Shown here in pieces: positions 1 to 60,808 of a stretch of DNA of 64,000 bases (position 1 is its first letter; the number at the start of each line of letters is the position of its first letter). The notes beneath the pieces are model-generated. The model ran no database searches and was not told the DNA's origin. It saw nothing but the letters and a program-made list of their open reading frames with translations. The position numbers and the translations under genes were made by a program. Source of the stretch: Orientallactaga sibirica (lineage: Eukaryota; Chordata; Mammalia; Rodentia; Dipodidae); NCBI GenBank assembly GCA_036365145.1, contig JAEOAD010001848.1:62001-126000 (forward strand). Reading direction: 5' to 3'.

Positions 1-3000
1 CACCTTCATTGCTGAAGAGTGTACTGTGTAAAATAAGCTAGTTCTGTTCTCGGAATGAGTTGCTTTTTATGAAGAGTCTTCAGTGCAGCAAGATCAAACT
101 TTCCTAGTTTGTGTAATCAAACAAGATGTACAACTTAGTAGATTAGCTTCATTTCTAACGTAGTTTGTTTTGAAAACAAACACCTTCATTTTCTTCATTA
201 AGACTGTACTGTGTGAAATAAGCTAGTTCTGTGTTCTCAGAATGAGTTGCTTTCTTATGAAGAGTCTTCAGTGCAGCAAGATCAAACTTTGCTAGTTTGT
301 GTAATCTATTGAAAGATGAACAACTTGGTAGATTAGCTTCATTTCTAACGTATTTTGTTTAGAAAACAAACACCTTCATTGCCAAGATGTTGTACTGTGT
401 GAAATAAGCTAGTTTCTGTTCTTGGAATGAGTGATAAATTTCTTTGAAGAGTCTTCAGTGCAGCAAGATCAAACTTTCCTAGTTTGTGTAATCTAACAAG
501 ATGAACAACTTGGTAGATTAGCTTCATTTCTAACATAGTTTGTTTAGAAAACAAACACCTTCATTGCCGAAGATTGTACTGTGTGAAATAAGCTAGTTCT
601 GTTCTCAGAATGAGTTGCTTTTTCTTATGAAGAGTCTTCAGTGCAGCAAGATCAAACTTTGCTAGTTTGTGTAATCTAACAAGATGAACAACTTAGTAGA
701 TTAGCTTCATTTCTAACGTAGTTTGTTTAGAAAACAAACACCTTCATTGCCAAAGACTGTACTGTGTGAAATAAGCTAGTTCTGTTCTAGGAATGAGTTG
801 CTTTCTTATGAAGAGTCTTCAGTGCAGCAAGATCAAACTTTGCTAGTTTGTGTAATCTAACAAGATGAACAACTTGGTAGATTAGCTTCATTTCTAACGT
901 AGTTTGTTTAGAAAACAAACACCTTCATTGCCAAACACTGTACTGTGTGAAATAAGCTAGTTCTGTTCTTGGAATGAGTTGCTTTCTTTATGAAGAGTCT
1001 TCAGTGCAGCAAGATCAAACTTTGCTAGTTTGTGTAATCAAACAAGATGAACAACTTAGTAGATTAGCTTCATTTCTAACGTAGTTTGTTTAGAAAACAA
1101 ACACCTTCATTGCAGAACACTGTACTGTGTGAAATAAGCTAGTTCTGTTCTTGGAATGAGTTGCTTTCTTATGAAGAGTCTTCAGTGCAGCAAGATCAAA
1201 CTTTGCTAGTTTGTGTAATCTAACAAGATGAACAACTTAGTAGATTAGCTTCATTTCTAACGTAGTTTGTTTTGAAAACAAACACCTTCATTGCCTAAGA
1301 CTGTACTGTGTGAAATAAGCTAGTTCTGTTCTTGGAATGAGTTGCTTTCTTATGAAGAGTCTTCAGTGCAGCAAGTTCAAACTTTCCTAGTTTGTGTAAT
1401 CAAACAAGATGAACAACTTGGTAGATTAGCTTCATTTCTAACGTAGTTTGTTTAGAAAACAAACACCTTCATTGCGAAAGACTGTACTGTGTGAAATAAG
1501 CTAGTTCTGTTCTTGGAATGAGTTGCTTTCTTATGAAGAGTCTTCAGTGCAGCAAGATCAAACTTTGCTAGTTTGTGTAATCTAACAAGATGTACAACTT
1601 AGTAGATTAGCTTCATTTCTAAAGTAGTTTGTTTAGAAAACAAACACCTTCATTGCTGAAGACTGTACTGTGTCAAATAAGCTAGTTCTGTTCTCAGAAT
1701 GAGTTGCTTTCTTATGAAGAGTCTTCAGTGCAGCAAGATCAAACTTTCCTAGTTTGTGTAATCTAACAAGATGAACAACTTGGTAGATTAGCTTCATTTC
1801 TAACGTAGTTTGTTTAGAAAACAAACACCTTCATTGCCGAAGATTGTACTGTGTGAAATAAGCTAGTTCTGTTCTCGGAATGAGTTGCTTTCTTATGAAG
1901 AGTCTTCAGTGCAGCAAGATCAAACTTTCCTAGTTTGTGTAATCTAACAAGATGAACAACTTGGTAGATTAGCTTCATTTCTAAGATAGTTTGTTTAGAA
2001 AACAAACACCTTCATTGCCTAAGACTGTGCTGTGTGAAATAAGCTAGTTCTGTTCTTGGAATGAGTTGCTTTCTTATGAAGAGTCTTCAGTGCAGCAAGT
2101 TCAAACTTTCCTAGTTTGTGTAATCAAACAAGATGAACAACCTAGTAGATTAGCTTCCTTTCTAATGTAGTTTGTTTAGAACACAAACACCTTCATTGCT
2201 GAACACTGTACTGTGTGAAATAAGCTAGTTCTGTTCTCGGAATGAGTTGCTTTCTTATGAAGAGTCTTCAGTGCAGCAAGTTCAAACTTTCCTAGTTTGT
2301 GTAATCTAACAAGATGAACAACTTAGTAGATTAGCTTCATTTCTAACGTAGTTTGTTTAGAAAACAAACACCTTCATTGCCAAACACTGTACTGTGTGAA
2401 ATAGGCTAGTTCTGTTCTCCAAATGAGTTGATTAATTATGAAGAGTCTTCAGTGCAGCAAGATCAAACTTTCCTTCTTTGTGTAATCTAGCAAGATGTAC
2501 AACTTAGTAGATTAGCTTCATTTCTAACGTAGTTTGTTTAGAAAACAAACACTTTAATTTCTGAACACTGTACTGTGTGAAATAAGCTAGTTCTGTTCTC
2601 GGAATGAGTTGCTTTCTTATGAAGAGTCTTCAGTGCAGCAAGATCAAACTTTCCTAGTTTGTGTAATCTAACAAGATGAACAACTTAGTAGATTAGCTTC
2701 ATTTCTAACGTAGTTTGTTTAGAAAACAAACACCTTCATTTGTGAACACTGTACTGTGTGAAATAAGCTAGTTCTGTTCTCAGAATGAGTTGCTTTCTTA
2801 CGAAGAGTCTTCAGTGCAGCAAGATCAAACTTTCCTAGTTTGTGTAATCTAACAAGATGAACAACTTAGTAGATTAGCTTCATTTCTAACGTAGTTTGTT
2901 TAGAAAACAAACACCTTCATTGGTGAAGACTGTACTGTGTGTGTGAAATAAGCTAGTTCTGTTCTTGGAATGAGTTGCTTTCTTATGAAGAGTCTTCAGT

Positions 3001-6000
3001 GCAGCAAGATCAAACTTTGCTAGTTTGTGTAATCTAACAAGATGAACAACTTAGTAGATTAGTTTCATTTCTAACGTAGTTTGTTTAGAAAACAAACACC
3101 TTCATTTCTGAACACTGTACTGTGTGAAATAAGCTAGTTCTGTTCTTGGAATGAGTTGCTTTCTTATGAAGAGTCTTCAGTGCAGCAAGATCAAACTTTG
3201 CTAGTTTGTGTAATCTAACAAGATGAACAACTTAGTAGATTAGCTTCATTTCTAACGTAGTTTGTTTAGAAAACAAACACCTTCATTGCAGAACACTGTA
3301 CTGTGTGAAATAAGCTAGTTCTGTTCTTGGAATGAGTTGCTTTCTTATGAAGAGTCTTCAGTGCAGCAAGATCAAACTTTCCTAGTTTGTGTAATCTAAC
3401 AAGATGAACAACTTAGTAGATTAGCTTCATTTCTAACGTAGTTTGTTTAGAAAACAAACACCTTCATTGCCGAAAACACTGTACTGTGAAATAAGCTAGT
3501 TCTGTTCTCAGAATGAGTTGCTTTCTTACAAAGAGTCTTCAGTGCAGCAAGATCAAACTTTGCTAGTTTGTGTAATCTAACAAGATGAACAACTTGGTAG
3601 ATTAGCTTCATTTCTAACGTAGTTTGTTTTGAAAACAAACACCTTCATTGCTGAAGACTGTACTGTGTGAAATAAGCTAGTTCTGTTCTCGGAATGAGTT
3701 GCTTTCTTATGAAGAGTCTTCAGTGCAGCAAGATCAAACTTTCCTAGTTTGTGTAATCTAACAAGATGAACAACTTAGTAGATTCGCTTCATTTCTAACG
3801 TAGTTTGTTTAGAAAACAAACACCTTCATTGCCGAACACTGTACTGTGTGAAATAAGCTAGTTCTGTTCTCGGAATGAGTTGCTTTCTTATGAAGAGTCT
3901 TCAGTGCAGCAAGATCAAACTTTGCTAGTTTGTGTAATCTAACAAGATGAACAACTTGGTAGATTAGCTTCATTTCTAATGTAGTTTGTTTTGAAAACAA
4001 ACACCTTCATTGCTGAAGACTGTACTGTGTGAAATAAGCTAGTTCTGTTCTCGGAATGAGTTGCTTTCTTATGAAGAGTCTTCAGTGCAGCAAGATCAAA
4101 CTTTCCTAGTTTGTGTAATCTAACAAGATGTACAACTTAGTAGATTCTCTTCATTTCTAACGTAGTTTGTTTAGAAAACAAACACCTTCATTGCTGAACA
4201 CTGTACTGTGTGAAATAAGCTAGTTCTGTTCTCGGAATGAGTTGCTCTTCTTATGAAGAGTCTTCAGTGCAGCAAGATCAAACTTTGCTAGTTTGTGTAA
4301 TCTAACAAGATGAACAACTTGGTAGATTAGCTTCATTTCTAACGTAGTTTGTTTTGAAAACAAACACCTTCATTGCCGAAGACTGTACTGTGTGAAATAA
4401 GCTAGTTCTGTTCTTGGAATGAGTTGCTTTTCTTTGAAAGTCTTCAGTGCAGCAAGATCAAACTTTGCTAGTTTGTGTAATCTAACAAGATGAACAACTT
4501 AGTAGATTAGCTTCATTTCTAACGTAGTTTGTTTAGAAAACAAACACCTTCATTGCTAAACACTGTACTGTGTGAAATAAGCTAGTTCTGTTCTTGGAAT
4601 GAGTTGCTTTCTTATGAAGAGTCTTCAGTGCAGCAAGATCAAACTTTCCTAGTTTGTGTAATCTAACAAGATGTACAACTTAGTAGATTAGCTTCATTTC
4701 TAACGTAGTTTGTTTAGAAAACAAACACCTTCATTGCCTAAACACTGTACTGTGTGAAATAAGCTAGTTCTGTTCTTGGAATGAGTTGCTTTCTTAGAAG
4801 AGTCTTCAGTGCAGCAAGATCAAACTTTGCTAGTTTGTGTAATCTAACAAGATGAACAACTTAGTAGATTAGCTTCATTTCTAACGTAGTTTGTTTGAAA
4901 ACAAACACCTTCATTGCGAAGACTGTACTGTGTGAAATAAGCTAGTTCTGTTCTTGGAATGAGTTGCTTTCTTATGAAGAGTCTTCAGTGCAGCAAGATC
5001 AAACTTTCTAGTTTGTGTAATCTAACAAGATGAACAACTTAGTAGATTAGCTTCATTTCTAAAGTAGTTTGTTTAGAAAACAAACACCTTCATTGCGAAC
5101 ACTGTACTGTGTGAAATAAGCTAGTTCTGTTCTCAGAATGAGTTGCTTTCTTATGAAGAGTCTTCAGTGCAGCAAGATCAAACTTTGCTAGTTTGTGTAA
5201 TCTAACAAGATGAACAACTTGGTAGATTAGCTTCATTTCTAACGTAGTTTGTTTAGAAAACAAACACCTTCATTGCCAAAGACTGTACTGTGTGAAATAA
5301 GCTAGTTCTGTTCTCGGAATGAGTTGCTTTCTTATGAAGAGTCTTCAGTGCAGCAAGATCAAACTTTCCTAGTTTGTGTAATCTAACAAGATGAACAACT
5401 TAGTAGATTAGCTTCATTTCTAACGTAGTTTGTTTAGAAAACAAACACCTTCATTGCAGAAGACTGTACTGTGTGAAATAAGCTAGTTCTGTTCTTGGAA
5501 TGAGTTGCTTTCTTATGAAGAGTCTTCAGTGCAGCAAGATCAAACTTTGCTAGTTTGTGTAATCTAACAAGATGTACAACTTAGTAGATTAGCTTCATTT
5601 CTAACGTAGTTTGTTTAGAAAACAAACACCTTCATTGCTGAAGACTGTACTGTGTGAAATAAGCTAGTTCTGTTCTGGAATGAGTTGCTTTCTTATGAAG
5701 AGTCTTCAGTGCAGCAAGATCAAACTTTGCTAGTTTGTGTAATCTAACAAGATGAACAACTTAGTAGATTAGCTTCATTTCTAACGTAGTTTGTTTTGAA
5801 AACAAACACCTTCATTGCTGAAGACTGTACTGTGTGAAATAAGCTAGTTCTGTTCTTGGAATGAGTTGCTTTCTTACAAAAGAGTCTTCAGTGCAGCAAG
5901 ATCAAACTTTCCTAGTTTGTGTAATCTAACAAGATGTACAACTTAGTAGATTAGCTTCATTTCTAACGTAGTTTGTTTAGAAAACAAACACCTTCATTGC

Positions 6001-7583
6001 CAAACACTGTACTGTGTGAAATAAGCTAGTTCTGTTCTCGGAATGAGTTGCTTTCTTATGAAGAGTCTTCAGTGCAGCAAGATCAAACTTTTCTAGTTTG
6101 TGTAATCTAACAAGATGTACAACTTAGTAGATTAGCTTCATTTCTAACGTAGTTTGTTTAGAAAACAAACACCTTCATTGCTAAAGATTGTACTGTGTGA
6201 AATAAGCTAGTTCTGTTCTTGGAATGAGTTGCTTTCTTATGAAGAGTCTTCAGTGTGCAGCAAGATCAAACTTTCCTAGTTTGTGTAATCTAACAAGATG
6301 TACAACTTAGTAGATTAGCTTCATTTCTAACGTAGTTTGTTTTGAAAACAAACACCTTCATTGCCTAAGACTGTACTGTGTGAAATAAGCTAGTTCTGTT
6401 CTCGAATGAGTTGCTTTCTTATGAAGAGTCTTCAGTGCAGCAAGATCAAACTTTCCTAGTTTTTGTAATCAAAAAGATGTACAACTTAGTAGATTAACTT
6501 CATTTCTAATGTAGTTTGTTTAGAAAACAAACACATTCATTGCTGAACACTGTACTGTGTGAAATAAGCTAGTTCTGTTCTCGGAATGAGTTGCTTTCTT
6601 ATGAAGAGTCTTCAGTGCAGCAAGATCAAACTTTGCTAGTTTGTGTAATCTAACAAGATGAACAACTTAGTAGATTAGCTTCATTTCTAACGTAGTTTGT
6701 TTAGAAAACAAACACCTTCATTGCTGAACACTGTACTGTGTGAAATAAGCTAGTTCTGTTCTCGGAATGAGTTGCTTTCTTATGAAGAGTCTTCAGTGCA
6801 GCAAGATCAAACTTTCCTAGTTTGTGTAATCAAACAAGATGAACAACTTAGTAGATTAGCTTCATTTCTAACGTAGTTTGTTTAGAAAACAAACACCTTC
6901 ATTGCCAAACACTGTACTGTGTGAAATAAGCTAGTTCTGTTCTCGGAATGAGTTGCTTTCTTATGAAGAGTCTTCAGTGCAGCAAGATCAAACTTTCCTA
7001 GTTTGTGTAATCAAACAAGATGAACAACTTAGTAGATTAGCTTCATTTCTAATGTAGTTTGTTTAGAAAACAAACACCTTCATTGCCAAAACACTGTACT
7101 GTGTGAAATAAGCTAGTTCTGTTCTTGGAATGAGTTGCTTTCTTATGAAGAGTCTTCAGTGCAGCAAGATCAAACTTTCCTAGTTTGTGTAATCTAACAA
7201 GATGAACAACTTAGTAGATTAGCTTCGTCATTTCTAACGTAGTTTGTTTAGAAAACAAACACCTTCATTGCAGAAACACTGTACTGTGTGAAATAAGCTA
7301 GTTCTGTTCTTGGAATGAGTTGCTTTCTTATGAAGAGTCTTCAGTGCAGCAAGATCAAACTTTGCTAGTTTGTGTAATCTAACAAGATGAACAACTTAGT
7401 AGATTAGCTTCATTTCTAAGGTAGTTTGTTTAGAAAACAAACACCTTCATTGCCGAACACTGTACTGTGTGAAATAAGCTAGTTCTGTTCTCAGAATGAG
7501 TTGCTTTCTTATGAAGAGTCTTCAGTGCAGCAAGATCAAACTTTGCTAGTTTGTGTAATCTAACAAGATGAACAACTTAGTAG

Positions 7584-8048
7584 ATTACCTTCATTTCTAA
7601 CGTAGTTTGTTTTAGAAAACAAACACCTTTTTTGCAAGAATATTATTTTGTGTTAATTTAAGCTAGTTCTGTTTCTTGGAATGAGTTGCTTTCTTTCAAA
7701 GAGGACCCTTGTCAATGGCGCTTGTTAGAAAACAAACACCTTCAATCTCAAAATTGCAGTTAGATCAAGTTCTTGCTTGTTGTGTTTCTAACATAATGTT
7801 CAACTCTAACTGTAGATTAGCTAGTTCTTTCTAATGAGTAGTTTGTTTTGAAAACACAACACCTTCATTTGCTTGTTCTGTATTCTAACAAGATGTAAGT
7901 TAAGCTCATTTCTGTTCTTTGAAAATGAGTTGCTTCATTTGGAAAGATGAAATCTTGTTGTGCATCAAGATCAGCCTTTTTCATGAAGAGTAGTTTCAAA
8001 CTTTGTAATCTAACAAGATTAACAACTTAGTAGATTACCTTCATTTCT
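7584..8048 (-). mobile_element. Scrambled 'ghost' of the LINE-1 insertion inside block 1
   Basis: This stretch breaks the monomer rhythm and is a mix of satellite words and LINE-1 words. It begins and ends with ATTACCTTCATTTCT (7,584-7,598 and 8,034-8,048), the exact 15-bp target-site duplication of the LINE-1 at 24,471-24,886. Between them, in the same order and nearly the same spacing as in the LINE-1, are ATATTATTTTG (7,640; LINE-1 24,500), a 29-base stretch at 7,692-7,720 that matches 24,559-24,586 with a one-base indel, CATAATG (7,792; 24,649), ACTCTAACT (7,803; 24,667) and TCAGCCTTTTTCA (7,971; 24,819). The rest reads as broken satellite fragments such as TTAGAAAACAAACACC. The following A-run variant at about 8,064 is also shared with about 24,917. 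It is either a degraded paralogous copy or a consensus artefact; a fresh independent insertion would not share flanks. Confidence 0.7.
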
Positions 8049-11000
8049 AACGTAGTTTGTTTAGAAAAAAAAACACCTTCATTGCCGAAGACTGTACTGT
8101 GTGAAATAAGCTAGTTCTGTTCTTGGAATGAGTTGCTTTCTTACAGAAGAGTCTTCAGTGCAGCAAGATCAAACTTTGCTAGTTTGTGTAATCTAACAAG
8201 ATGTACAACTTAGTAGATTAGCTTCATTTCTAACGTAGTTTGTTTAGAAAACAAACACATTCATTGGAGAACACTGTACTGTGTGAAATAAGCTAGTTCT
8301 GTTCTCAGAATGAGTTGCTTTCTTATGAAAAGTCTTCAGTGCAGCAAGATCAAACTTTGCTAGTTTGTGTAATCTAACAAGATGAACAACTTAGTAGATT
8401 AGCTTCATTTCTAACGTAGTTTGTTTAGAAAACAAACACCTTCATTGCCAAAAACACTGTACTGTGTGAAATAAGCTAGTTCTGTTCTTGGAATGAGTTG
8501 CTTTTTCTTGAAGAGTCTTCAGTGCAGCAAGTTCAAACTTTGCTAGTTTGTGTAATCTAACAAGATGAACAACTTAGTAGATTAGCTTCATTTCTAACGT
8601 AGTTTGTTTAGAAAACAAACACCTTCATTGCCAAACACTGTACTGTGTGAAATAAGCTAGTTCTGTTCTTGGAATGAGTTGCTTTCTTATGAAGAGTCTT
8701 CAGTGCAGCAAGATCAAACTTTGCTAGTTTGTGTAATCTAACAAGATGAACAACTTAGTAGATTAGCTTCATTTCTAACGTAGTTTGTTTAGAAAACAAA
8801 CACCTTCATTGCCTGAACACTGTACTGTGTGAAATAAGCTAGTTCTGTTCTCTTGGAATGAGTTGCTTTCTTATGAAGAGTCTTCAGTGCAGCAAGATCA
8901 AACTTTCCTAGTTTGTGTAATCTAACAAGATGAACAACTTAGTAGATTAGCTTCATTTCTAACGTAGTTTGTTTAGAAAACAAACACCTTCATTGCTGAA
9001 GACTGTACTGTGTGAAATAAGCTAGTTCTGTTCTTGGAATGAGTTGTTTTCTTATGAAGAGTCTTCAGTGCAGCAAGATCAAACTTTGCTACTTTGTGTA
9101 ATCTAACAAGATGAACAACTTAGTAGATTAGCTTCATTTCTAACGTAGTTTGTTTAGAAAACAAACACCTTCATTGCTGAAGACTGTACTGTGTGAAATA
9201 AGCTAGTTCTGTTCTTGGAATGAGTTGCTTTCTTATGAAGAGTCTTCAGTGCAGCAAGATCAAACTTTTCTAGTTTGTGTAATCTAACAAGATGAACAAC
9301 TTAGTAGATTAGCTTCATTTCTAACGTAGTTTGTTTAGAAAACAAACACCTTCATTGCTGAACACTGTACTGTGTGAAATAAGCTAGTTCTGTTCTTGGA
9401 ATGAGTTGCTTTCTTATGAAGAGTCTTCAGTGCAGCAAGATCAAACTTTGCTAGTTTGTGTAATCTAACAAGATGAACAACTTGGTAGATTAGCTTCATT
9501 TCTAACGTAGTTTGTTTTGAAAACAAACACCTTCATTGCCAAACACTGTACTGTGTGAAATAAGCTAGTTCTGTTCTTTGAATGAGTTGCTTTCTTCTGA
9601 AGAGTCTTCAGTGCAGCAAGATCAAAACTTTGCTAGTTTGTGTAATCTAACAAGATGAACAACTTGGTAGATTAGCTTCATTTCTAACGTAGTTTGTTTA
9701 GAAAACAAACACCTTCATTGCCTGAACACTGTACTGTGTGAAATAAGCTAGTTCTGTTCTTGGAATGAGTTGCTTTCTTGAAGAGTCTTCAGTGCAGCAA
9801 GATCAAACTTTGCTAGTTTGTGTAATCTAACAAGATGAACAACTTGGTAGATTAGCTTCATTTCTAACGTAGTTTGTTTAGAAAACAAACACCTTCATTG
9901 CTGAACACTGTACTGTGTGAAATAAGCTAGTTCTGTTCTCTGGAATGAGTTGCTTTCTTATGAAGAGTCTTCAGTGCAGCAAGATCAAACTTTCCTAGTT
10001 TGTGTAATCTAACAAGATGAACAACTTGGTAGATTAGCTTCATTTCTAACGTAGTTTGTTTTAGAAAACAAACACCTTCATTGCCAAAGACTGTACTGTG
10101 TGAAATAAGCTAGTTCTGTTCATGGAATGAGTTGCTTTCTTATGAAGAGTCTTCAGTGCAGCAAGATCAAACTTTCCTAGTTTGTGTAATCAAACAAGAT
10201 AAACAACTTAGTAGATTAGCTTCATTTCTAACGTAGTTTGTTTAGAAAACAAACACCTTCATTGCCAAAGATTGTACTGTGTGAAATAAGCTAGTTCTGT
10301 TCTGGAATGAGTTGCTTTCTTATGAAGAGTCTTCAGTGCAGCAAGATCAAACTTTCCTAGTTTGTGTAATCTAACAAGATGTACAACTTAGTAGATTAGC
10401 TTCATTTCTAACGTAGTTTGTTTAGAAAACAAACACCTTCATTGCTGAAAACTGTACTGTGTGAAATAAGCTAGTTCTGTTCTCTGGAATGAGTTGCTTT
10501 ATTATGAAGAGTCTTCAGTGCAGCAAGATCAAACTTTCCTAGTTTGTGTAATCTAACAAGATGAACAACTTAGTAGATTAGCTTCATTTCTAACGTAGTT
10601 TGTTTAGAAAACAAACACCTTCATTGCTGAACACTGTACTGTGTGAAATAAGCTAGTTCTGTTCTTGGAATGAGTTGCTTTCTTAAAAAGAGTCTTCAGT
10701 GCAGCAAGATCAAACTTTGCTAGTTTGTGTAATCTAACAAGATGAACAACTTAGTAGATTAGCTTCATTTCTAAAGTAGTTTGTTTAGAAAACAAACACC
10801 TTCATTGCCGAACACTGTACTGTGTGAAATAAGCTAGTTCTGTTCTCAGAATGAGTTGCTTTCTTATGAAGAGTCTTCAGTGCAGCAAGATCAAACTTTG
10901 CTAGTTTGTGTAATCTAACAAGATGAACAACTTAGTAGATTAGCTTCATTTCTAACGTAGTTTGTTTAGAAAACAAACACCTTCATTGCCGAAGATTGTA

Positions 11001-12414
11001 CTGTGTGAAATAAGCTAGTTCTGTTCTTGGAATGAGTTGCTTTCTTATGAAGAGTCTTCAGTGCAGCAAGATCAAACTTTGCTAGTTTGTGTAATCTAAC
11101 AAGATGAACAACTTAGTAGATTAGCTTCATTTCTAACGTAGTTTGTTTAGAAAACAAACACCTTCATTGCCGAACACTGTACTGTGTGAAATAAGCTAGT
11201 TCTGTTCTCAGAATGAGTTGCTTTCTTATGAAAAGAGTCTTCAGTGCAGCAAGATCAAACTTTGCTAGTTTGTGTAATCTAACAAGATGAACAACTTAGT
11301 AGATTAGCTTCATTTCTAACGTAGTTTGTTTAGAAAACAAACACCTTCATTGCCAAACACTGTACTGTGAAATAAGCTAGTTCTGTTCTCTGGAATGAGT
11401 TGCTTTCTTATGAAGAGTCTTCAGTGCAGCAAGATCAAACTTTTGCTAGTTTGTGTAATCTAACAAGATGAACAACTTAGTAGATTAGCTTCATTTCTAA
11501 CATAGTTTTGTTTAGAAAACAAACACCTTCATTGCTGAACACTGTACTGTGTGAAATAAGCTAGTTCTGTTCTTGGAATGAGTTGCTTTCTTATGAAGAG
11601 TCTTCAGTGCAGCAAGATCAAACTTTGCTAGTTTGTGTAATCTAACAAGATGAACAACTTGGTAGATTAGCTTCATTTCTAACGTAGTTTGTTTAGAAAA
11701 CAAACACCTTCATTGCTGAACACTGTACTGTGTGAAATAAGCTAGTTCTGTTTGTTCTCAGAATGAGTTGCTTTTTACGAAGAGTCTTCAGTGCAGCAAG
11801 ATCAAACTTTGCTAGTTTGTGTAATCTAACAAGATGAACAACTTAGTAGATTAGCTTCATTTCTAACATAGTTTGTTTAGAAAACAAACACCTTCATTGC
11901 AGAAGACTGTACTGTGTGAAATAAGCTAGTTCTGTTCTCGGAATGAGTTGCTTTCTTACAAAGAGTCTTCAGTGCAGCAAGATCAAACTTTGCTAGTTTG
12001 TGTAATCTAACAAGATGTACAACTTAGTAGATTAGCTTCATTTTTTAGTTTTGTTTGAAAACAAACACCTTCATTGCCAAAAGACTGTACTGTGTGAAAT
12101 AAGCTAGTTCTGTTCTCGGAATGAGTTGCTTTCTTACGAAGAGTCTTCAGTGCAGCAAGATCAAACTTTGCTAGTTTGTGTAATCTAACAAGATGAACAA
12201 CTTAGTAGATTAGCTTCATTTCTAACGTAGTTTGTTTAGAAAACAAACACCTTCATTGCTGAACACTGTACTGTGTGAAATAAGCTAGTTCTGTTCTTGG
12301 AATGAGTTGCTTTCTTACGAAGAGTCTTCAGTGCAGCAAGATCAAACTTTGCTAGTTTGTGTAATCTAACAAGATGTACAACTTAGTAGGTTACCATCAT
12401 TTTTAACGTAGTTT

Positions 12415-20900: not shown

Positions 20901-23900
20901 ACTGTGTGAAATAAGCTAGTGCTGTTCTCAGAAGAAGTTGCTTTATAACGAAGAGTCTTCAGTGCAGGAAGATCAACCTTTACTAATTTGTGTAATCTAA
21001 CAACATGAACAACTTGGTAGATTAGCTTCATTTATAATGTAGTTTGTTTAGAAAACATACACCTTCATTTCCAAAGATTGTATTGTGTGAAATAAGCTAG
21101 TTCTGTACTCGGAATGAGTTGCTTTCTTATGAAGAGGTTTTTGTGCAGCAAGATCAAACTTTGCTAGTTTGTGTAATCTAACAAGATGAACAACTTGGCA
21201 GATTATCTTCATTTCTAACGTAGTTTGTTTAGAAAACAAACACATTCATTGCCGAAGCCTGTACTGTGGGAAATAAGCTAGTTCTGTTCTTGGAATGAGT
21301 TGCTTTGTTGTGAAGAGTCTTCAGTGCAGCAAGATCAAACTTTGCTAATTTGTGTAATCTGAAAACATGAACAACTTGGTAGATTAGCTTCATTTCTAAC
21401 GTAGTTGGTTTAGAAAACAAACACATTCATTGCCGAAGATTGTACTGTGTGAAATAAGCTAGTTCTATTTTCGGAAGGAGTTGCTTAACTATGAAGAGTC
21501 TTCAGTGCAGCAACATCAAACTTTCCTAGTTTGTGTAATCTAACAAGATGTACAACTTGGTAGATTTGCTTGATATGTAATGTAGTAGTTTTAGAAAACA
21601 AACACCTTCATTGCCGAAGATTGTACTGTGTGAAATAAACTAGTTCTGTTTTCGGAATGAGTTGCTTTCTTACAAAGAGTCTTCAGTGCAGCGAGTTTAA
21701 TATTTCCTAGTTTGTGTAATCAAACAAGATGAACAACTTAGTCGATTAGCTTCACTTCTAACGTACTTTGTTTAGAAAAAAAACACATTCATTGACGAAG
21801 TTTGTACTGTGTGAAATAAGCTAGTTCTGTTCTTGGAATGAGTTGCTTTCTTACGAAGAGTCTTCAGTGCAACAAGATCAAACGTTGCTAGTTTGTGTAA
21901 TCTATACTAGATGTACAACTTAGTAGATTAGCTTAGTTTCTAAAGTATTTTGTTTAGAAAACAAACACCTTCATTGCTGAAGACTGTGCTGTGTCAAATA
22001 ATCTAGCTATGTTCTCAGAATGAGTTGCTTTCTTTTGAAGAGTCTTCAATGCAGCAAGATCAAAATTTGCTAGTTTATCTAATCTAACAGGATGAACAAC
22101 TTGGTATATTAGCTTCATTTCTAACGTAGTTTGTTTAGAAAACAAACATCTTCATTGACGAATATTGAACTGTGTGAAATAAGCTAGTTCTCTTCTCGGA
22201 ATGAGTTGCTTTCTTACGAAGAGACTTCAGTAAAGCAAGTTCAAACTTTCCTAGATTGTGTAATCAAACAAGATGAACAACTTAGTAGATTAGCTTCATT
22301 TCTAACTTAGTTTGTTTGGAAAACAAACACCTTCATTACAGAACACTGTCTGTGTGAAATAAGCTAGTTCTGTTCTCGGAATGAGTTGCTTTCTTACGAA
22401 GAGTCTTCAGTGCAGTAAGATCAAACTTTCCTAGTTTGTGTAATCAAACAAGATGAACAACTTAATAGATTACCTTCATTTCTAAAGTAGTTTGTATAGA
22501 ACACAAATACCTTCATTGGTGAACACTGTACTGTGTGAAATAAGCTACTTCTGTTCACGGAATGAGTTGCCTTCTTATGAAGAGTTTTCAGTGCAGCAAG
22601 ATAAAACTTTGCTAGTTTGTGTAATCTAACAAGATGAACAACTTGGTAGATTAGCTTCGTTTCTAACATAGTTTGTTTTGAAAACAAACACCGTCATTGC
22701 CGAAGAGTGTACTGCGTGAAATAAGCTAGTTCTGCTCTCCGAGTGAGTTGCTTTCTTACAAAAAGTCTTCAGTGCAGCCAGATCAAACTTTCCTAATTTG
22801 TGTAATCTAAGTAGATGTAGAACTTAGTAGATTAACTTCATTTCTAACGTAGTTCGTTTAGAAAACAAACACATTCATTGCCGAAGCTTGTACTGTGGGA
22901 AATAAGCAAGTTCTGTGCTCTGAATAAGTGGCTTTGTTACGAAGAGTCTTCAGTGCAGCAAGATCAGACTTTGCTAGTTTGTCTAATCTAAGAAGATGAA
23001 CACCTTGGTAGATTAGCTTCATTTCTAACGTAGTTTGTTTAGAAAACAAACACCTTCATTTGTAAAGATTGTAGTGTGTGAAATAAGCTATTTCTGTTCT
23101 TGGAATGAGTTGCTTTCTTACGAAGAGTCTTCAGTGCTGCAAGTTCTAAATTTCCTAGTTTCTGCAATCTAACAAGATGTAAAACTTAGTAGTTTAGCTT
23201 TATTTCTACCGTAGTTTCTTTTGAAAACAAACACCTTCATTGCCTAAGACTGTACCGTGTCAAATAGCTAGATGTGTTCTCGAAATGAGTTGCTTTCTTA
23301 CGAAGAGTCTTCAGTGCAGCAAGATCAAACTTTCCTAGTTTTTGTAATCTAAAAAGATGTAGAACTTAGTAGATTAACTTCATTTCTAATGTAGTTTGTT
23401 TAGAAAACAAACACATTCATTGCCAAAGCCTGTACTATGGGAAATAAGCTAGTTCTGTACTCGGAATTAGTTGCTTTCTTACGAAGAGTCTTCAGTGCAG
23501 CAAGATCAAACTTTGCTTGTTTGTGTAATCTAACAAGATGAACAACTTGGTATATTAGCTTCATTTCTAAAGTAGTTTGTTTAGAAAACAAACATTAGCA
23601 TTACTGAACACTGTACTGTGTGAAATAAGCTAGTTCTGTTCTCGGAATGAGTTGGTTTCTTACGAAGAGTCTTCAGTGTAGCAACTTCATACTTTCCTAA
23701 TTTGTGTAATCCAACAAGATGAACTAATTAGTAGATTAGCTTCATTTCTCACGTACTTTGTTTAGAAAACAAACACCTTCATTACCAAACACTGTACAGT
23801 GTGAAATAAGCTAGATCTGTTCTCGGAATGAGTTGCTTAATTATTAAGAGTTTAAGTGCAGCAAGATCAAACTTTCCTAGTTTGTGTAATCAAACAAGAT

Positions 23901-24455
23901 GTGCAACTTAGTAGATTAGCTTCATTTCTAATGCAGTTTGTTTTGAAAACAAACACCTTCATTGCCTAAGACTGTACTGTGTCAAATAGCTAGTTCTGTT
24001 CTTGGAATGAGTTGCTTTCTCACGAAGAGTCTTCAGTGCAGCAAGATCAAACTTTCCTAGTTTGTGTAATCTTACAAGATGGAAAACTAGGTAGATTAGC
24101 TTCATTTCTAACGTAGTTTGTGTAGAACACTAACACTTTCATTGCAGAAAACTGTACTGTGTGAAATAAGCTAGTTCTGTTCTTGGAATGAGTTGCTTTC
24201 TTTACGAAGAGTCTTCAGACAGTAAGATCAAGCTTTGCTAGTTTGTGTAATCTAACAAGATGAACAACTTTTTAGATTACTTCATTTCTAAGGTAGTTCG
24301 TTTAGAAAACAATCACCTTCATTTTCGAAGATTATAATGTGTGAAATAAGCTTGTTCTGTTCTCGGAATCAGTTGCTTTCTTACGAAGAGTCTTCAGTAC
24401 AGCAAGATCAAACTTTGCTAGTTAGTGTACTCTAACAAGATATACAGCTTAGTAG

Positions 24456-24470
24456 ATTACCTTCATTTCT
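24456..24470. repeat. Target-site duplication, left copy
   Basis: ATTACCTTCATTTCT, 15 bp, lies directly before the T-rich end of the inserted element and matches 24,887-24,901 exactly. It is satellite sequence, a variant of the usual ATTAGCTTCATTTCT. Removing the insert and one copy restores a normal monomer running on into AACGTAG. Confidence 0.92.
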
Positions 24471-24886
24471 TTTTGTTATATATAGATATATTTTTATTTA
24501 TATTATTTTGATTTTACATTTATAGTAAAGGTTCCATTGTCCTCCTCCCTGTCCTCCCTCTTTCAAAGGGACCCTTGTCAATGGCGAATGTGGGTCAAGC
24601 ATTGTGAGGTTAGTTAAGAGTTCTGGGGGGTTGTCCCCAGTCTCTGTGCATAATGCCCCAACTATGACTCTAACTTTCTTTCCGCCCCCTCTTCCGCAAG
24701 TTTCCCTGAGCCACATTGGGGTCATTTTAGTTCTGCTTCAGTGAAGTGGTTTTGGGAGCCTCTGTGTCTCTGGATATCTGGCTTAGTTGGAGTTGGATGA
24801 TCTCTGTGTTTATCTCCTTCAGCCTTTTTCAGGTGTCATGACCGCCATGAAAGCTGAACTCTTGCCCTTCCCCTGCGTTGTTCTAT
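24471..24886 (-). mobile_element. LINE-1 (L1) 3' end, 5'-truncated, antisense to window
   Basis: A 416-bp non-satellite insert flanked by a perfect 15-bp duplication. Read on the minus strand it ends in a purine-rich tract (24,540-24,568), then an AATAAA signal at 24,493-24,498 and an A-rich tail up to 24,471. These are hallmarks of an L1 3' UTR with poly(A). The implied nick, TTTCT/AA on the plus strand, is close to the L1 endonuclease consensus TTTT/AA. Words such as CCAATGTGGCTCAGGG and CCAGAGACACAGAGGC (minus strand) recall muroid-rodent L1 3' UTRs from memory, so the rodent call is tentative. Only non-coding 3' sequence seems present; the 75-codon open frame within it is not an L1 protein. 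Because it is present once in clean form, this part of the array has not been amplified since insertion. Confidence 0.8.
24493..24498 (-). promoter_or_regulatory. Polyadenylation signal AATAAA of the LINE-1
   Basis: Minus-strand AATAAA lies about 20 bases before the 3' end of the insert, where an L1 poly(A) signal belongs. The surrounding sequence is an A-rich, slightly decayed tail with TATATA motifs, suggesting the tail has mutated since insertion. Confidence 0.65.
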
Positions 24887-24901
24887 ATTACCTTCATTTC
24901 T
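24887..24901. repeat. Target-site duplication, right copy
   Basis: ATTACCTTCATTTCT, identical to 24,456-24,470. It marks the 5' (truncated) end of the LINE-1, after which the satellite resumes in the correct phase with AACGTAGTTT. Confidence 0.92.
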
Positions 24902-27900
24902 AACGTAGTTTCTTTAGAAAAAAAACACCTTCATTGCCGTACACTGTACTGTGTGAAATAAGCTAGTTCTCTTCTCAGAATGAATTGCTTTCTTATGAAG
25001 AGTCTTCAGTGAAGCAAGATAAAACTTTGCTAGTTTTTGTACTCTGACAAGATGTACAACATAGTAGATGAGCCTCGTTTCTAAAGTAGTTTGTTTAGAA
25101 AACAAACACATTCATTGCCGAACAGTGTACTGTGTGAAATAAGCTAGTTCTGTTCTCAGAATGAGTTGCTTTCTTATGAAGAGTCATCAGTAAAGCAAGT
25201 TCAAACTTTGCTAGTTTGTGTAATCAAACAAGTTGAACAACTTAGTAGATTAGCTTCATTTCTAACGTAGTTTGTTTAGAAAAGGAACACCTTCATTGCC
25301 GAACACTGTATTGTGTGAAATAAGATAGGTCTCTTCTTGGAATGAGTTGCTTTCTCACGAAGATTCTTCAGTGCAGCAAGTTCAAACGTTCCTAATTTGT
25401 GTCATCAAACAAGATAAACAACTTAGTAGATTAGCTTCATTTCTAATGTAGTTTGTTTAGAAAACAAACACATTCATTGCCCAAGATTGAACTGTGTGAA
25501 ATAAGCTAGTTCTGTTCTTGGAATGAGTTGCTTTCTTATGAAGAGTCTTCAGTGCAGCAAGATCAAATTTTGCTAGCTTGTGTACTTTAACAAGATGTAC
25601 AACTTACTATATTAGCTTCATTTCTAACGTAGTTTGTTTAGAAAACAAATACATTCATTGCTGAACACTGTACTGTGTGAAATAAGCTAGTTCTGTTCTC
25701 GGAATGAGTTGCTTTCTTACGAAGAGCCTTCAGTGCAGCAAGATCAAACTTTCCCAGTTTGTGTAATCTAACAAGATGAACAACTTTGTAGTTTAGCTTC
25801 ATTTCTGACGTGGTTGATTTAGAAAACAAACACCTTCATATGCGAAGATTGTACTATGTGAAATAAGCTAGTTCTGATCTCGGAATGAGTTGCTTTTTTA
25901 TGAAGAGTTTCCATTGCAGCAAGATCAAACTTTTCTACTTTGTGTAATTTAACAAGATGAACAACTTCTTAGATTAGCTTCACTTCTAACGTAGTTTGTT
26001 TAGAAAACAAACACTTTCATTCCCGAAGATTGTACTGTGTGAAATAGCCTAGTTCTGTTTTCGGAATGAGTTGCTTTCTAAAGAAGAGTCTTCAGTGCAG
26101 CAAGATCAAACTTTTCTAGTTTGTGTAATCTAACAAGATGAATAACTTTGTAGATTAGCTTCATTTCTAACGTAGTTTGTAGAGAAAACCAACCCCTTCA
26201 TTGCCGAACACTGTAATGTGTGAAATAAGCTAGTTCTGTTCTTGGAATGAATTGCTTTCTTACGAAAAGTCTTCAGTGCAGCAAGATCTAACTTTGCTAG
26301 TTTGTGTAATCTAACAAGATGAACAAAATGGTAGATTAGCTTCGTTTATAACGTAGTTTGTTTTGAAAGGAAACACCTTCATTGCCAAAGATTGTACTGT
26401 TTGAAATAAGCTAGTTCTGTTCTCTGAATGAATTGCTTTCTTCTGAACAGTCTTCAGTGCAGCAAGATCAAACATTGCTAGTATGTGTAATCTAAAACGA
26501 TGAACAACTTGATAGATTAGCTTCATTTCTAACGTAGTTTGTTTAGAAAAGAAATACCTTCATTGCCCAAGATTGTACTGTGTGTTATAAACTAGTTCTG
26601 TTCTCGGAATGAGTTGCTTTCTTACAAAGAGTCTTCAGTGCAGCCAGATCAAACATTCCTAGTTTGTGTAATCTAAAAAGATGTAGTACTTAGTAGATTA
26701 ACTTCATTTCTAACATAGTTTGTTTAGAAAACAAACCCATTCATTACGGAAGCCTGTACTGTGGGAAATAAGCTAGTTCTGTTCTCGGAATGAGTTGCTT
26801 TCTTACTAAGAGTCTTCAGTGCAGCAAGATCAAACTTTGATAGTTTGTGTAATCTAACAAGATGAACAACTTGGTAGATTAGCTTCATTTCTAACGTAGT
26901 GTGTTTGGAAAAGAAACACCTTCATTTGCAAATACTGTACTGTGTGAAATAAGCTAGTTCTGTTCATGGAATGAGTTGCTTTCTCCTGAAGAGTCTTCAG
27001 TGCAGCAAGTTCAAACTTTCCTAGTTTGTGTCATCAAACATGATAAACAACTTAGTACATTAGTTTCATTTCTAACGTTGTTTGTTTAGAAAACAAACAC
27101 CTTCATTGCCAAAGATTGAACTGTGTGAAACAAGCTGGTTCTGTTCTCGGAATGAGTTGCTTTCTTACGAAGAGTCTTCAGTGCAGAAAGATCAAACATT
27201 CCCAGTTGATGTAATCTAAAAAGATGTAGAACTTCATAGATTAACTTCATTTCTAACGTATTTTTTTTTTTAGAAAACAAACACATTCATTGCAGAAGCC
27301 TGTACTGTGGGAAATAAGCTAGTTCTGTTCTCTGAATGAGTTGCTTTATAGCGAAGAGTCTTCAGTGCAGCAAGTTCAAACTTTCCTAGTTTCTGTAATC
27401 AAACAAGATGAACAACTTAGTAGATTTCCTTCATTTACAACATAGTTTGTTTATAACACAAGCACCTTCATTGCTGAACACTGTACTGTGTGAAATAAGC
27501 TGGTTCTGTTCTTGGATGAGTTGCTTTCTTAGGAAGAGCCTTCAGGGCAGAAAGTTCAAACTTTGCTAGTTTTTGTACTGTAGCAAGATGTACGACTTAG
27601 TATATTAGCTTCATTTCTAAAGTATTTTGTTTAGAAAACAAACACCTTCATTGCCGAACACCTTACTGTGTGAAATAAGCTAGTTCTGTTCTCAGAATGA
27701 GTTGATTTCTTTTGAACAGTCTTCAGTACAGCAAGATTAAACTTTGCTAGTTTGGTTAATATGACAAGATGAACAACTTGGTAGATTAGCTTCATTTCTA
27801 ACGTAGTTTGTTTAGAAAACAAACACCTTCATTGCCGAAGATTGAACTGTGTGAAATAAGCTAGTTCTGTTCTTGGAATGAGTTGCTTTCTTATGAAGAA

Positions 27901-28902
27901 TCTTCAGTGAGGCAAGATCAAACTTTGATAGTTTGTGTACTCTAACAACATGTACAGCTTAGTTGATTAGATTCATTTCTAACGTACTTTGTTTAGAAAA
28001 CAAACACCTTCATTGCCTAACACTGTACTGTGTGAAATAAGCTAGTGCTCTTCATAGAATCAGTTGCTTTCTTACGAAGTTTCTCAGTGCAGCAAGATCA
28101 AACTTTCCTAGTTTATGTAATCTAACAAGATGAACAACTTGTTAGATTAGCTACTTTTCTAACGTAGTTCGTTTCAAAAACAAACACCTTCATTGCCGAA
28201 CACTGTACTGTATGAAATAAGCTAGTTCTGTTCTCGGTATGAGTTGCTTTCTTATGAATAGTCTTCAGTACAGCATGATCAAACTTTTCTAGTTTGTGTA
28301 ATCTAACAAGATGAACAAGTTTGTAGATTAGGTTCACTTCTAACATAGTTTTTTGGAAAAAAAAAAAAACACCGTCATTGCCGAAGATTATACTGTGTAA
28401 AATAAGCTAGTTCTGTTCTCGGTATGAGTTGCTTTCTTATGAAGAGTCTTCAGTGTAGCAACTTCAAATTTTTCGAGTTTGCATAATCTGATAAGATGAA
28501 CAACTTGGTAGATTAGCTTCATTTCTAACGTCGTTTGTTTAGAAAACAAACATCTTCATTGCCGAACACTGTACTGTGTCAAATAAGCTAGTTCTGTTCT
28601 GTTCTCAGAATGATTTGATTTCTTACGAAGAGTCTTCAGTGCAGCAAGATCAATCTTTGCTAGTTTGTCTAATCTAACAAGATGAACCACTGGTAGATTA
28701 GCCTCATTTCTAACATAGTTTCTTTAGAAAACAAACACCTTGATTGCAGAAGACTGTACTATGTGAAATAAGCTAGATCTATTCTCAGAATGAGTTGCTT
28801 TCTTATGAAGAGTCTTCAGTGCAGCAAGATCAAACTTCCTAGTTTGTGTAATCTAACAAGATGTACAACTTAGTAGATGAGCTTCATTTTTAACGTAGTT
28901 TT

Positions 28903-29443
28903 GTTTGAAAACAAACACCTTCATTGCCAAAGACTGTTCTGTGTCAAATAAGCTAGTTCTGTTCTCGGAATGATTTGCTCTCTTACGAAGAGTTTTCAGT
29001 GCATCAAGATCAAACTTTGCTACTTTGTGTAATCTAACAAGATGTTCAATTTAGTAGATTACCTTCATTTCTAACACAGTTTGTTTAGAAAAAAAAACAC
29101 CTTCATTACTGAACACTGTACTGTGTGAAATAAGCTAGTTCTGTTCTTGGAATTAGTTGCTTTCTTCCGAAGAGTCTTCAGTGCAGGGAGATCAAATTTT
29201 GCTAGGTTGTGTAATGTAACAAGATGAACAACTTAGTCTACCAGCTTCATTTCTAACATAGTTTGTTTTGAAAAAAACATCTTCATTGCCGAACACTGTA
29301 CTATGTGAAATAAGCTAGTTATTTCTCGGAATGATTTGCTTTCTTACGAAGAGATGTCAGTGCATCAATTTCAAACTTTGCTAGCTTGTGTAATCTAACA
29401 AGATGTACAACTTAGAAGATTAGCTTCATTTCTATCGTAGTTT
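28903..29443. repeat. Three-monomer tandem duplication, copy 1
   Basis: Three monomers with private variants: first GACTGTTCTGTGTC with GAATGATTTGCTCTC; second GGAATTAGTTGC with GCAGGGAGATC and AGTCTACCAGC; third ACTATGTGAAA with GAAGAGATGTCAGTG and TCTATCGTAG. The same three follow immediately in the same order, so this is a 541-bp unit duplicated in tandem after the surrounding monomers had diverged. Confidence 0.88.
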
Positions 29444-29983
29444 GTTTAGAAAAAAAACACCTTCATTGCCAAAGACTGTTCTGTGTCAAATAAGCTAGTT
29501 CTGTTCTCGGAATGATTTGCTCTCTTACGAAGAGTTTTCAGTGCATCAAGATCAAACTTTGCTACTTTGTGTAATCTAACAAGATGTACAATTTAGTAGA
29601 TTACCTTCATTTCTAACACAGTTTGTTTAGAATAAAAACACCTTCATTACCAAACACTGTACTGTGTGAAATAAGCTAGTTCTGTTCTTGGAATTAGTTG
29701 CTTTCTTCCAAAGAGTCTTCAGTGCAGGGAGATCAAATTTTGCTAGGTTGTGTAATGTAACAAGATGAACAACTTAGTCTACCAGCTTCATTTCTAGCAT
29801 AGTTTGTTTTGAAAAAAACATCTTCATTGCCGAACACTGTACTATGTGAAATAAGCTAGTTCTTTCTTGGAATGATTTGCTTTCTTACGAAGAGATGTCA
29901 GTGCAGCAATTTCAAACTTTGCTAGCTTGTGTAATCTAACAAGATGACGACTTAGAAGATTAGCTTCATTTCTATCGTAGTTT
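29444..29983. repeat. Three-monomer tandem duplication, copy 2
   Basis: A 540-bp second copy of the unit at 28,903-29,443, carrying all three private variant sets with only scattered differences, many of them CpG changes such as CCGAAGAG to CCAAAGAG. Much more similar to each other than to neighbouring monomers, the two copies reflect a recent unequal exchange. Confidence 0.88.
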
Positions 29984-30184
29984 GTTTAGAAAAAAACACC
30001 TTCATTGCCAAAGACTGTACTGTGTGATATAAGCTAGTTCTGTTATTGGAATGAGATGTTTACGAAGAGTCTTCAGTGCATCAAGATCAAACTTTGGTAG
30101 ATTGTGTAATCTAACAAGATTAACAACTTGGTACATTAGCTTCATTTCTAACGTAGTTTGTTTACAAAACAAACACCTTCATTG

Positions 30185-33100
30185 CCGAACACTGTAGTAT
30201 GGGAAATAACCTAGTCCTCTTCTTGGAATGAGTTGCTTTCTTACAAACAGTCTTCAGTACAGCAAGATCAAACTTTCCTAGTTAGTTTAATCTAACAAGA
30301 TGTCCAACTTAGTAGATTCGCCACATTTCTAAAGTAGTTTTTTTTAGAAAACAAACATCTTCATTTCTGAACACTGTACTGTATGATATAAGCCACTTCT
30401 GTTCTCAAAATGAGTTACTTTCTTACAAAGGGTCTTCAGTGCAGCAAGATCAAACTTTGGAAGTTTGTGTAATCTAACAAGATGTACAATTTAGTAGATT
30501 AGCTTCATTTATAATGCAGTTTGTTTAGAAAAAAAACACCTTCATTGCCGAAGACTGTACTATGTGAAATAAGCTAGTTCTGTTCTTGGAATTAGTTGCT
30601 TTCTTACGAAGAGTCTTCAGTGCAGCAAGATCAAACTTTCGTAGTTTGTATAATCTAACAAGATTTACAACGTAGTAGATTAGCTTCATTTCTAACTTAG
30701 TTTGTTTAGAAAACAAACACCTTCATTGCTGAACACTGTACTGTGTGAAATAAGCTAGTTCTGTTCTCAGATTGAGTTGCTTTCTTACGAAGAGTCTTCA
30801 GTGCAGCAAGATCAAACTTTTCTAGTTTGTATAATCTAACAAGATATACAACTTAGTATATTCTCCACATTTCTAAAGTAGTTTGTCTAGAAAACAAACG
30901 TCTTCATTGCCTCTACTGTGTGAAACGAGCTAGTTCTGTTCTCAGAATGGTTTGATTTCTTACAAAGAGTCTTCAGTGCAGCAAGATCAAACCTTGGTAG
31001 TTTGGTTAATCTAACAAGATGAAAAACTTCATAGATAAGCTTCATTTCTAAATTAGTTTGTTTAGAAAACAAACACCATTGTTGCCAAAGACGGTACTTT
31101 GTGAAATAAGCTAGTTCTTTCTGAGAATGAGTTGCTTTCTTAAGAAGAGTCTTCAGTGCAGCAAGATGAAACTTTTCTAGTTTGTGTAATCTAACAAGAT
31201 GAACAACTTTGTAGATTAGCTTCATTTGTAACGTAGTTTATTTAGAAAACAAACACCTTCATTGCCGAAGACTGTACTGTGTGAAATAACCTAGTTCTTT
31301 CTTGGAATGATTTGCTTTCTTGTGAAGAGACCTCAGTGCAGCAAGATCAAACTTTGCTAGGTTGTGTAATCTAACAAGATGAACAACTTGGTTGATTAGC
31401 TTCATTTCTAACGTAGTTTTTTTTTTTTTAGAAAACAAACACCTTCATTGGTGAACACTGTAGTATGAGAAATACGCTAGTTCTCTTCTCAGAATGAGTT
31501 GTTTTCTTACTAACAGTCTTCAGTGCAGGAAGATCAAACTTTCCTATTTGGTGTAATCTAACAAGAAGTCCAACTTAGTAGAATCGCCACATTTCTAAAG
31601 TAGTTTGTTTAGAAAACAAACAACTTCACTGCCGAACACTGTACTGTGTGAAATAAGCTAGTTCTGTTCTAACATAAGTTGCTTTCTTACGAACAGTCGT
31701 CAGTGCAGCAAGATCAAATTTCCTAGTTTGTGTAATCTAAGCATATGAACAAGTTGGCAGATTAGCTCCATTTCTAACATAGTTTGTTTATAAAACAAAC
31801 ACCTTCATTGCCTAAGACTGTACTGTGTGAAATAAGCTAGTACTTTCTCAGAATGATTTCCTTTCTCACGAAGACCTGTCAGTGCAGCAAGATCAAACTT
31901 TGTAAGTTTGGGTAATCTAAAAAGATGAACAACTTGGTAGCTGAGCTTCATTTCTAACGTAGTTTGTTTAGAAAACAAACACCTTCATAGCCGAAGACTG
32001 TACTGTGTGAAATAAGCTAGTTCTTTTCTCAGAATGAATTGCTTTCTTACGAAGAGTCTTCAGAGCAGCAAGATCAAACTTTGCAAGTTTGTGTAATCTA
32101 ACAATTTGTACAACTGAGTAGATTAGCTTCATTTCTAAAGTAGTTTGATGAGAAAACAAAAACCTTCATTGCCGAACACTGTACTGTGTGAAATAAGCTA
32201 ATTCTATTTTAGGAATGAGTTGCTTTCTTACAAGGAGTCTTCAGTGCAGCAAGATCAATCTTTCCTAGTTTGTGTATTCTAACAAAATGTAGAACTTAGT
32301 AGATTAGCTTCATTTCAAACTAGTTTGATTAGAATCAAACACCTTCATTGTCGAAGACTGTGCTGCATAAAATGAGCTAGTTCTGTTCTCGAATGTGTTG
32401 CTTTCTTACGAAGAGACTTCAGTGCAGCAAGATCAAACTTTCCTAGTTTGTGTAATCTAAGAAGATGTACAATTTAGTAGATTAACTTCATTTCTAACTT
32501 AGTTTGTTTAGAAAACAAACACCTTCATTGCCGAACACTGTACTGTGTGAAATAAGTTAGCTCTTTCTCGGAATGAGTGACTTTCTAATGTGGAGTCTTC
32601 AGCTGAGCAACATCAAACTTTCCTGATTTGTGTAATCTAACAAGATGAACAACTGCGTAGATTATCTTCATTTCTAATGTAGTTTGATTAGAAAAGAAAC
32701 ACCTTCATTGCCGAACACTGTATTGTGTGAAGTAAGCTAGTTCTGTTTTTGGAATGAGTTACTTTCTTAAGAATAGTTTTCAGTGCAGCAAGATCCAACT
32801 TTCCTAGTTTGATTAATCAAACAAGATGTCCAACTTAGTAGATTCGGCACATTTCTAAAGTAGTTTGTTTAGAAAAAAAAACATCTTCATTGCCGAACAT
32901 GGTACTGTGTGAAATAAGGTAGTTCTGTTCTCGAAATGAGTTGTTTTCTTATGAAGAGTATTAAGAGCAGCAAGATCAAACTCGGCTAGTTTGTGTAATA
33001 TAAGAAGATCAACAACTTGGTAGATTAGCTTCATTTCTAACATAGTTTGTTTCGAAAACAAACACCTTCATTGCCGAACACTGTACTGTGTCAAAAAAGC

Positions 33101-33610
33101 TAGTTCTGTTCTTGGAATGAGTTCCTTTCTTACGAAGAGGCTTCAGTGAAGCAAGATCAAACTTTGCTAGTTAGTGTAATCTAAGAAGATGTACAACTTA
33201 GTAGATTAGCTTCATTTCTAACGTAGTTTGTTTAGAAAACAAACATGTTCATTGCCGAATACTGTACTGTGTGAAGTAAGATAGTTCTATTCTCGGAATG
33301 ATTTGATTTCTCACGAAGAGTCTTCAGTGCAGCAAGTTCAAAATTTGCTGGTTTGTGTAATCTAACAAAATGTACAACTTATTAGATTCTCTACATTTCT
33401 AAAGTATTTTGTTTAGAAAACAAACATCTTCATTGCTGAACACTGTACTGTGTGAAATAAGCTAGTTCTGTTCTCGGAATGATTTGATTTCTTACGAAGA
33501 GTCTTCAGTGCAGGTAGATCAAACTTTGCTAGTTTTTGTAATCTAAGAATATGAACAACTTGGTAGATTAGCTCCATTTCTAATGCAGTTTGTTTAGAAA
33601 ACAAACACCT
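30185..33610. repeat. A/B mosaic monomers in a roughly 7-monomer higher-order pattern
   Basis: Five junctions carry family-B-like ends within an otherwise family A region: ATTCGCCACATTTCTAAAG at about 30,316, and similar at 30,857, 31,580, 32,840 and 33,386, each followed by B-like ACATCTTC or a near relative. The rest of these monomers, such as the GTCTTCAGTGCAG part, is family A. The rare TCCAACTTAGTAG form occurs at about 30,303, 31,569 and 32,829, about 1,263 bp (7 monomers) apart, and the preceding monomers at 30,185 and 31,450 share GTAGTATGRGAAATA. A further marker, AGCTCCATTTCTAA then CCTAAGACTGTA, recurs at about 31,766 and 33,566 (10 monomers). Confidence 0.7.
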
Positions 33611-60714: not shown

Positions 60715-60771
60715 ATCTTCATTGCTGAACACTGTACTGTGTGAAATAAGCTAGTTCTGTTCTTGGAATGA

Positions 60772-60788: not shown

Positions 60789-60808
60789 AAGGTTGAGTGC
60801 AGCAAGTT

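Follow-up and report, generated by a model that had tools for sequence, protein, structure and literature searches.

Overcorrection of repeats is a described hazard of long-read assembly, and one report names centromeric satellite arrays as a cause (PMC12016036). A second paper describes a nuclear mitochondrial piece that long-read polishing rewrote as full mitochondrial sequence (PMC8081667). It also describes homotype false duplications, which arise at contig boundaries and are about one read length in size.

In this report, we describe a probable comparable case inside a satellite array. The first 16.6 kb of the window that we analysed (64,000 nucleotides), hereafter block 1, is very probably a consensus that was over-corrected, blurring a repeat segment of which sharp versions stand elsewhere in the assembly, rather than the true chromosome sequence or an ancient duplication; this judgement comes from comparing sequences. 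An earlier note on this DNA had held a homogenised duplication of the adjoining 16.5 kb and a consensus or imputed rendering of it to be equal alternatives. Our results favour a rendering, but the adjoining 16.5 kb is not clearly what was rendered.

The satellite array and its smoothed first block

The window (C1355:62001-126000, forward strand) is a tandem array of a 181-bp satellite, which alignment to a consensus divides into 355 monomers. Block 1 (1..16630, plus strand, ~92 monomers) differs from that consensus by 1.6-4.3% substitutions per kb, its insertion site and right edge excluded; the consensus was built from block-1 monomers, which lowers the divergence of block 1 and favours it in this comparison. 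The left flank (C1355:56-62k) stands at 8.3-10.7% per kb, and divergence drops from 8.8% to 2.4% between C1355:61,751 and 62,501, within ~750 bp at the start of the window. To the right, the values are 7.9-10.4% per kb at 17-41 kb, outside the insertion described below, and 8.1-15.8% at 42-64 kb. The smoothness reported in the earlier note is thus borne out, at 1.6-4.3% per kb versus 8-11% in both flanks. The change is abrupt on both sides, and both edges are corrupted: the left (1..620, plus strand) has 16 inserted and 2 missing bases relative to the consensus, and the right (16627..16640, plus strand) lacks consensus positions in runs of 10, 8 and 5.

Contig C1355 seems to mix accurate and degraded stretches. 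A second, deletion-rich patch (41150..42110, plus strand) has 213 missing and 4 inserted positions relative to the consensus, with register jumps and few substitutions (33 in 41,281-42,100). By 20-mers it is not unusual, as 508 of its 942 are present elsewhere and four controls gave 430-586. Upstream of the window, C1355:36,000-56,000 is low-divergence satellite (2.4-6.0% per kb) that matches rough segments one-sidedly: 44,982-46,794 against 60,555-62,371 shares 34 variants of 75 and of 151 (uncalibrated z threshold). We take this stretch for a possible milder case of smoothing, though it could be of natural origin.

Elsewhere the array has structure of its own. The region after block 1 has no outstanding long-range period, its best lags being short (1-13; z <=2.7). 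A three-monomer duplication at 28,913-29,862 (spacing 541-542; exact matches of 133, 86 and 64 bp) speaks for the accuracy of the rough sequence. The stretch 42,111-64,000 is a distinct satellite subfamily, in which 13 monomer positions depart from the block-1 consensus in at least 80 of the 122 monomers, and 60,682-63,904 is a local young block with many exact inter-monomer matches of 89-125 bp. Among substitutions below 10% frequency in 16,761-64,000, transitions and transversions number 948 and 1,863 (~0.5), a low ratio for a mammal-sized genome. A 25-base satellite word had no match in the viral_contigs or genome_contigs collections, and four 16-base words were found in none of the papers searched. 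Nor did a literature search for a "181 bp" centromeric satellite of a rodent find one; the sole match to a 181-bp centromeric satellite monomer appears to concern sugarcane.

Collinearity and the source of block 1

Block 1 had been said to be collinear with the whole of the next ~16.5 kb (block 2). Exact k-mers with two occurrences in the window failed to show such an offset; rare-variant sharing by monomer was needed to reveal it. Using substitutions only, windows of 13 block-1 monomers were compared with the other 263 monomers, excluding the two insertion sites, the patch at 41-42 kb and the right edge of block 1. Significance was taken from 300 permutations of monomer order (95% family-wise threshold z 5.5, maximum 6.9). 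A lag of 93 monomers (offset ~16.85-16.88 kb) reached z 9.3 and was the sole lag above the threshold. Across a 54-monomer core, 122 of 197 block-1 substitutions are common at this lag (other lags: mean 54.8, sd 7.0, maximum 73). The mean number of differences per monomer is 14.7, versus 17.85 (sd 0.84, minimum 16.56) for the remaining lags between 70 and 180, so that the offset of ~16,870 proposed earlier does prove better than other whole-monomer offsets. Two further lags, 137 and 141, stood beside or above 93 in a first score and were dropped once only substitutions outside the patches were counted.

This collinearity holds for part of the proposed span. The windows above threshold cover 4183..14242 (plus strand), the counterpart of which at lag 93 is 21060..31100 (plus strand, end approximate). 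It was not detected in monomers 0-22 (1 to ~4.2 kb), where lag 93 ranks 13th of 170 lags with 45 of 134 substitutions shared, or in monomers 77-91 (the last ~2.4 kb of block 1), where it ranks 38th of 170 with 20 of 76 shared. The sharing of indels stays at background level (1 of 95 at lag 93, with an average of 0.44 across lags). A Viterbi path assigned lag 112 to block-1 positions 556-2,912 and other lags to other end pieces, none of which exceeded the permutation threshold.

The anchor words on which the collinearity had been based fare less well. For each, we counted the places in 16,641-64,000 that match at least as well, partner included. The pair 12,047/28,897 is specific (1 place), and 6,481/23,361 does agree at 59 of 60 bases, but 2 places are equally good. 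Neither 6,342/23,221 (4 places), 1,661/18,548 (7) nor 8,255/25,106 (8) is specific. The pair 1,272/18,171 is misaligned at those coordinates (4/30), the word lying ~12 bases earlier (18,159, by eye), and the 30-mer at 1,272 matches 30/30 at both 23,221 and 23,943. Most anchors, taken singly, are matched as well elsewhere in the window.

Block 2 contains an intact LINE-like insertion (24476..24887) with a 15-bp target-site duplication, recognised from its sequence and its matches in the genome; its T-rich end is on the left, which places it on the minus strand. Presumably it is a LINE-1, the name that the earlier note gave it. A search of the assembly (2.82 Gb, 2,163 contigs) with this insertion gave at least 41 matches (40 of 2,201 candidates scored). 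The matches listed comprise the window's own place, at least six further satellite places bearing the insertion, namely C102, C153, C1355:347.5k, C385, C1536 and C1346, and 34 others. The same insertion with an identical target site in at least six other satellite places is a natural tag of recent satellite copying.

These copies allow the source of block 1 to be considered. C102 is a 44-kb contig with non-satellite sequence at ~7-11.5 kb and from ~38 kb (reverse-complement coordinates). BLAST of the block-1 core against it gave several registers at nearly equal score, so that plain alignment is unable to place block 1; the insertion-anchored register was absent among the six listed. By variants, in counts uncorrected for variant frequency, block 1 carries 28 of 222 C102-only versus 11 of 276 block-2-only variants in monomers 11-30 on the left side, and shows no preference in monomers 31-41 (8 of 115 versus 13 of 162). 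In the nearest monomers the two candidates are indistinguishable (0/16 versus 1/19). To the right of monomer 30, block 1 has 16 of 219 block-2-only versus 6 of 216 C153-only variants, and block 2 and C102 tie. Collinearity with C102 seemingly starts at ~2,188 (z 3.9-4.8, uncalibrated), earlier than with block 2. A C102-like source seems to fit both sides of the insertion, and the adjoining 16.5 kb is no clear candidate for the source.

These comparisons bear on the most serious rival, a false duplication, in which blocks 1 and 2 would be two renderings of one segment, over-corrected in one and accurate in the other, whose contig ends were joined unmerged. It would account for lag 93 being the only significant lag within the window, and PMC8081667 describes false duplications of about read length where contigs meet. 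The lean toward C102 on the left and the apparently earlier start of collinearity with that contig speak against it. The monomers near the insertion favour neither C102 nor block 2. We regard this rival as possible but unlikely.

Sister copies and the patchwork insertion site

The other insertion-bearing copies serve as a control for the loss of variants from block 1. Over the ten monomers closest to the insertion, the copies in block 2, C102, C153 and C385 agree at 159-166 of 169-176 variants to its left and at 118-130 of 130-147 to its right, and the block-2 core is 98.2% identical to C102 over 9.3 kb. Together these facts indicate that the insertion-tagged segment really was copied. We measured one-sidedness by counting variants found only in the copy (own-only) or missing from it relative to block 2, in a span of 10 monomers to the left of the insertion and 15 to its right, a two-way comparison that depends less on the choice of consensus. 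Four sister copies differ from block 2 in both directions, with own-only/missing counts of 33/29 (C102), 37/16 (C153), 44/27 (C385) and 184/186 (C1355:347.5k), and their inserts are almost intact. Block 1, by contrast, shares 67 variants with block 2, has 31 of its own and is missing 340. Relative to its sisters it has lost private variants one-sidedly, as expected of an over-corrected consensus.

The loss also depends on variant frequency, again as such a consensus would have it. Block 1 retains 6 of 207 block-2 variants below 5% frequency, 16 of 81 at 5-10%, 23 of 55 at 10-35% and 22 of 64 above 35%; in the core it retains 10 of 416 private variants and 36 of 85 at 20-35%. C102, C153 and C385 keep 191-196 of the same 207 private variants. 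The claim that block 1 has lost most private variants was therefore well founded (6/207 kept).

Two copies are less simple. The right flank of C1346 is not satellite, as is true also of parts of the C385 flanks, and C1346 was therefore compared on the left only. There it has 13 own-only and 48 missing variants relative to block 2 and, over 30 monomers, 30 own-only and 233 missing relative to C153; its insert is intact (411 matches, 4 substitutions). We take this one-sided loss for a milder case of smoothing, but it could be natural; if natural, one-sided loss alone is no proof, and the argument for an artefact rests on the insert. C1536 is a distant copy that keeps 12 of 207 private variants, with 349 own-only and 334 missing (left side misregistered by one monomer). 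It shares variants weakly in every register tried, except that the nearest monomer is alike by eye. An apparent 596-bp insert there was an artefact of a boundary placed one monomer back.

At the insertion site of block 1 (7600..8030, plus strand), path segmentation and 20-mer counts find a patchwork of satellite and insert words. The stretch 7,590-8,040 breaks into 25 path segments in 451 bases, of which ~101 bases are assigned to the insert, and the satellite words jump register. Both sides keep the target site in its rare ATTACC form. Among the satellite words, insert words of 11, 10, 18, 9 and 13 bp that are absent elsewhere in the window stand in the correct order at offsets of 16,848-16,867; three out-of-order pieces assigned to the insert (7,896, 7,942 and 7,991) may be chance. 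Insert words of at least 8 bp number 7, where shuffled inserts gave 4.3 on average, and the 18-mer alone exceeds the longest shuffled-insert word (13, in 100 shuffles). The site aligns to the insert with a score of 139 (200 shuffled inserts: mean 56, maximum 95) and scores more against satellite (317, best register). Of its 412 20-mers, 41 are present elsewhere in the sequence compared, versus 308-412 for 36 other block-1 stretches; the intact insert has 378 of 399 present elsewhere. Aligned to the block-2 insert, the site matches at 280 positions, with 92 substitutions and 117 gap columns, and the inserts of C102, C153, C385, C1355:347.5k and C1346 have 411-417 matches and 3-7 substitutions. 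Its length is nearly preserved (440 versus 421 bases). In block 1, then, a non-satellite insert has been rewritten into satellite-like sequence, as an over-corrected consensus would leave it.

A real duplication of a ~93-monomer insertion-bearing segment, with one copy homogenised by gene conversion or unequal exchange, is very improbable on this evidence. It can appeal to the true copying of the segment several times, to the milder one-sided loss with intact insert in C1346 and to the possible greater age of common variants, by which retention could rise with frequency unaided. Conversion tracts, however, should leave runs of retained partner variants and an insertion that is intact or replaced as a block, and block 1 has neither. 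Its longest retained run is 4 (121 of 838 variants retained), a length matched or exceeded in 424 of 2,000 frequency-matched shuffles, with private variants kept at the 10/416 given above; retained variants are only slightly clustered (z 3.3 at neighbour distance 1). Further, real copies at similar or greater distance differ both ways, and a length-preserving patchwork of satellite and insert is not expected from conversion between satellite copies. A somewhat more doubtful thought is that block 1 is a real young copy, in which templated copying from the dominant satellite overwrote the insert and private variants in steps of tens of bases; if true, this would be a repair process that erases inserts from a satellite array. 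That block 1 is merely a more homogeneous stretch unrelated to block 2, sharing variants as any satellite would, is almost certainly wrong: most anchors do match equally well elsewhere, and low-divergence satellite occurs at C1355:36-56k and in C102, but the permutation test contradicts it for 4,183-14,242, and the rare target-site variant that flanks the insertion site at either end and the order of the insert words also speak against it.

Possible origin of block 1 and comparison with known systems

An over-corrected consensus would account jointly for the one-sided, frequency-dependent loss of variants and for the rewritten insert, since a column-wise vote among reads would produce both. 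We propose that long reads from an insertion-bearing, C102-like copy, to which block 2 is a sister, were used to bridge an interval between two accurate stretches, one ending near C1355:62,000 and the other starting near 78,640. Reads from satellite at many other places would have piled onto the bridging reads, and the vote would have swapped private variants for common bases; at the insertion, misaligned satellite would have outvoted the true reads. The step responsible could be read correction, gap filling or polishing, both stage and tool being our inference, and block 1 is perhaps a gap fill. Several points tell against an artefact: the one-sided loss with intact insert in C1346, the low divergence of C1355:36-56k, the small number of insert words, the higher score of the insertion site against satellite than against the insert, the slight clustering of retained variants and the building of the consensus from block-1 monomers.

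Patches like block 1 would be mistaken for "young" satellite that was homogenised recently, and estimates of the age, divergence and duplication of an array would be biased by them. Where sister copies carry a common insertion as a tag, comparing them for two-sided versus one-sided loss of variants provides a read-free flag for such patches in published assemblies.

The copying of the insertion-tagged segment is itself real biology of this region, and we saw nothing unusual in it: block 2, C102, C153 and C385 have the insertion in common, along with most variants in its flanks, as in recent copying of a retrotransposon-tagged satellite. Block 1 resembles homotype false duplication, as described in PMC8081667, in what would be two tandem renderings of one sequence about one read length in size (16.6 kb); it differs in that C102, rather than the neighbouring segment, seems the best source, and in that no gap lies between the two. 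It is like the overcorrection in PMC12016036 and PMC8081667 in that locus-specific bases seem to have been swapped for those of more abundant related reads and an insert to have been rewritten. Unlike those cases, block 1 was recognised from sister copies, without reads, and a second rendering of a related segment adjoins it.
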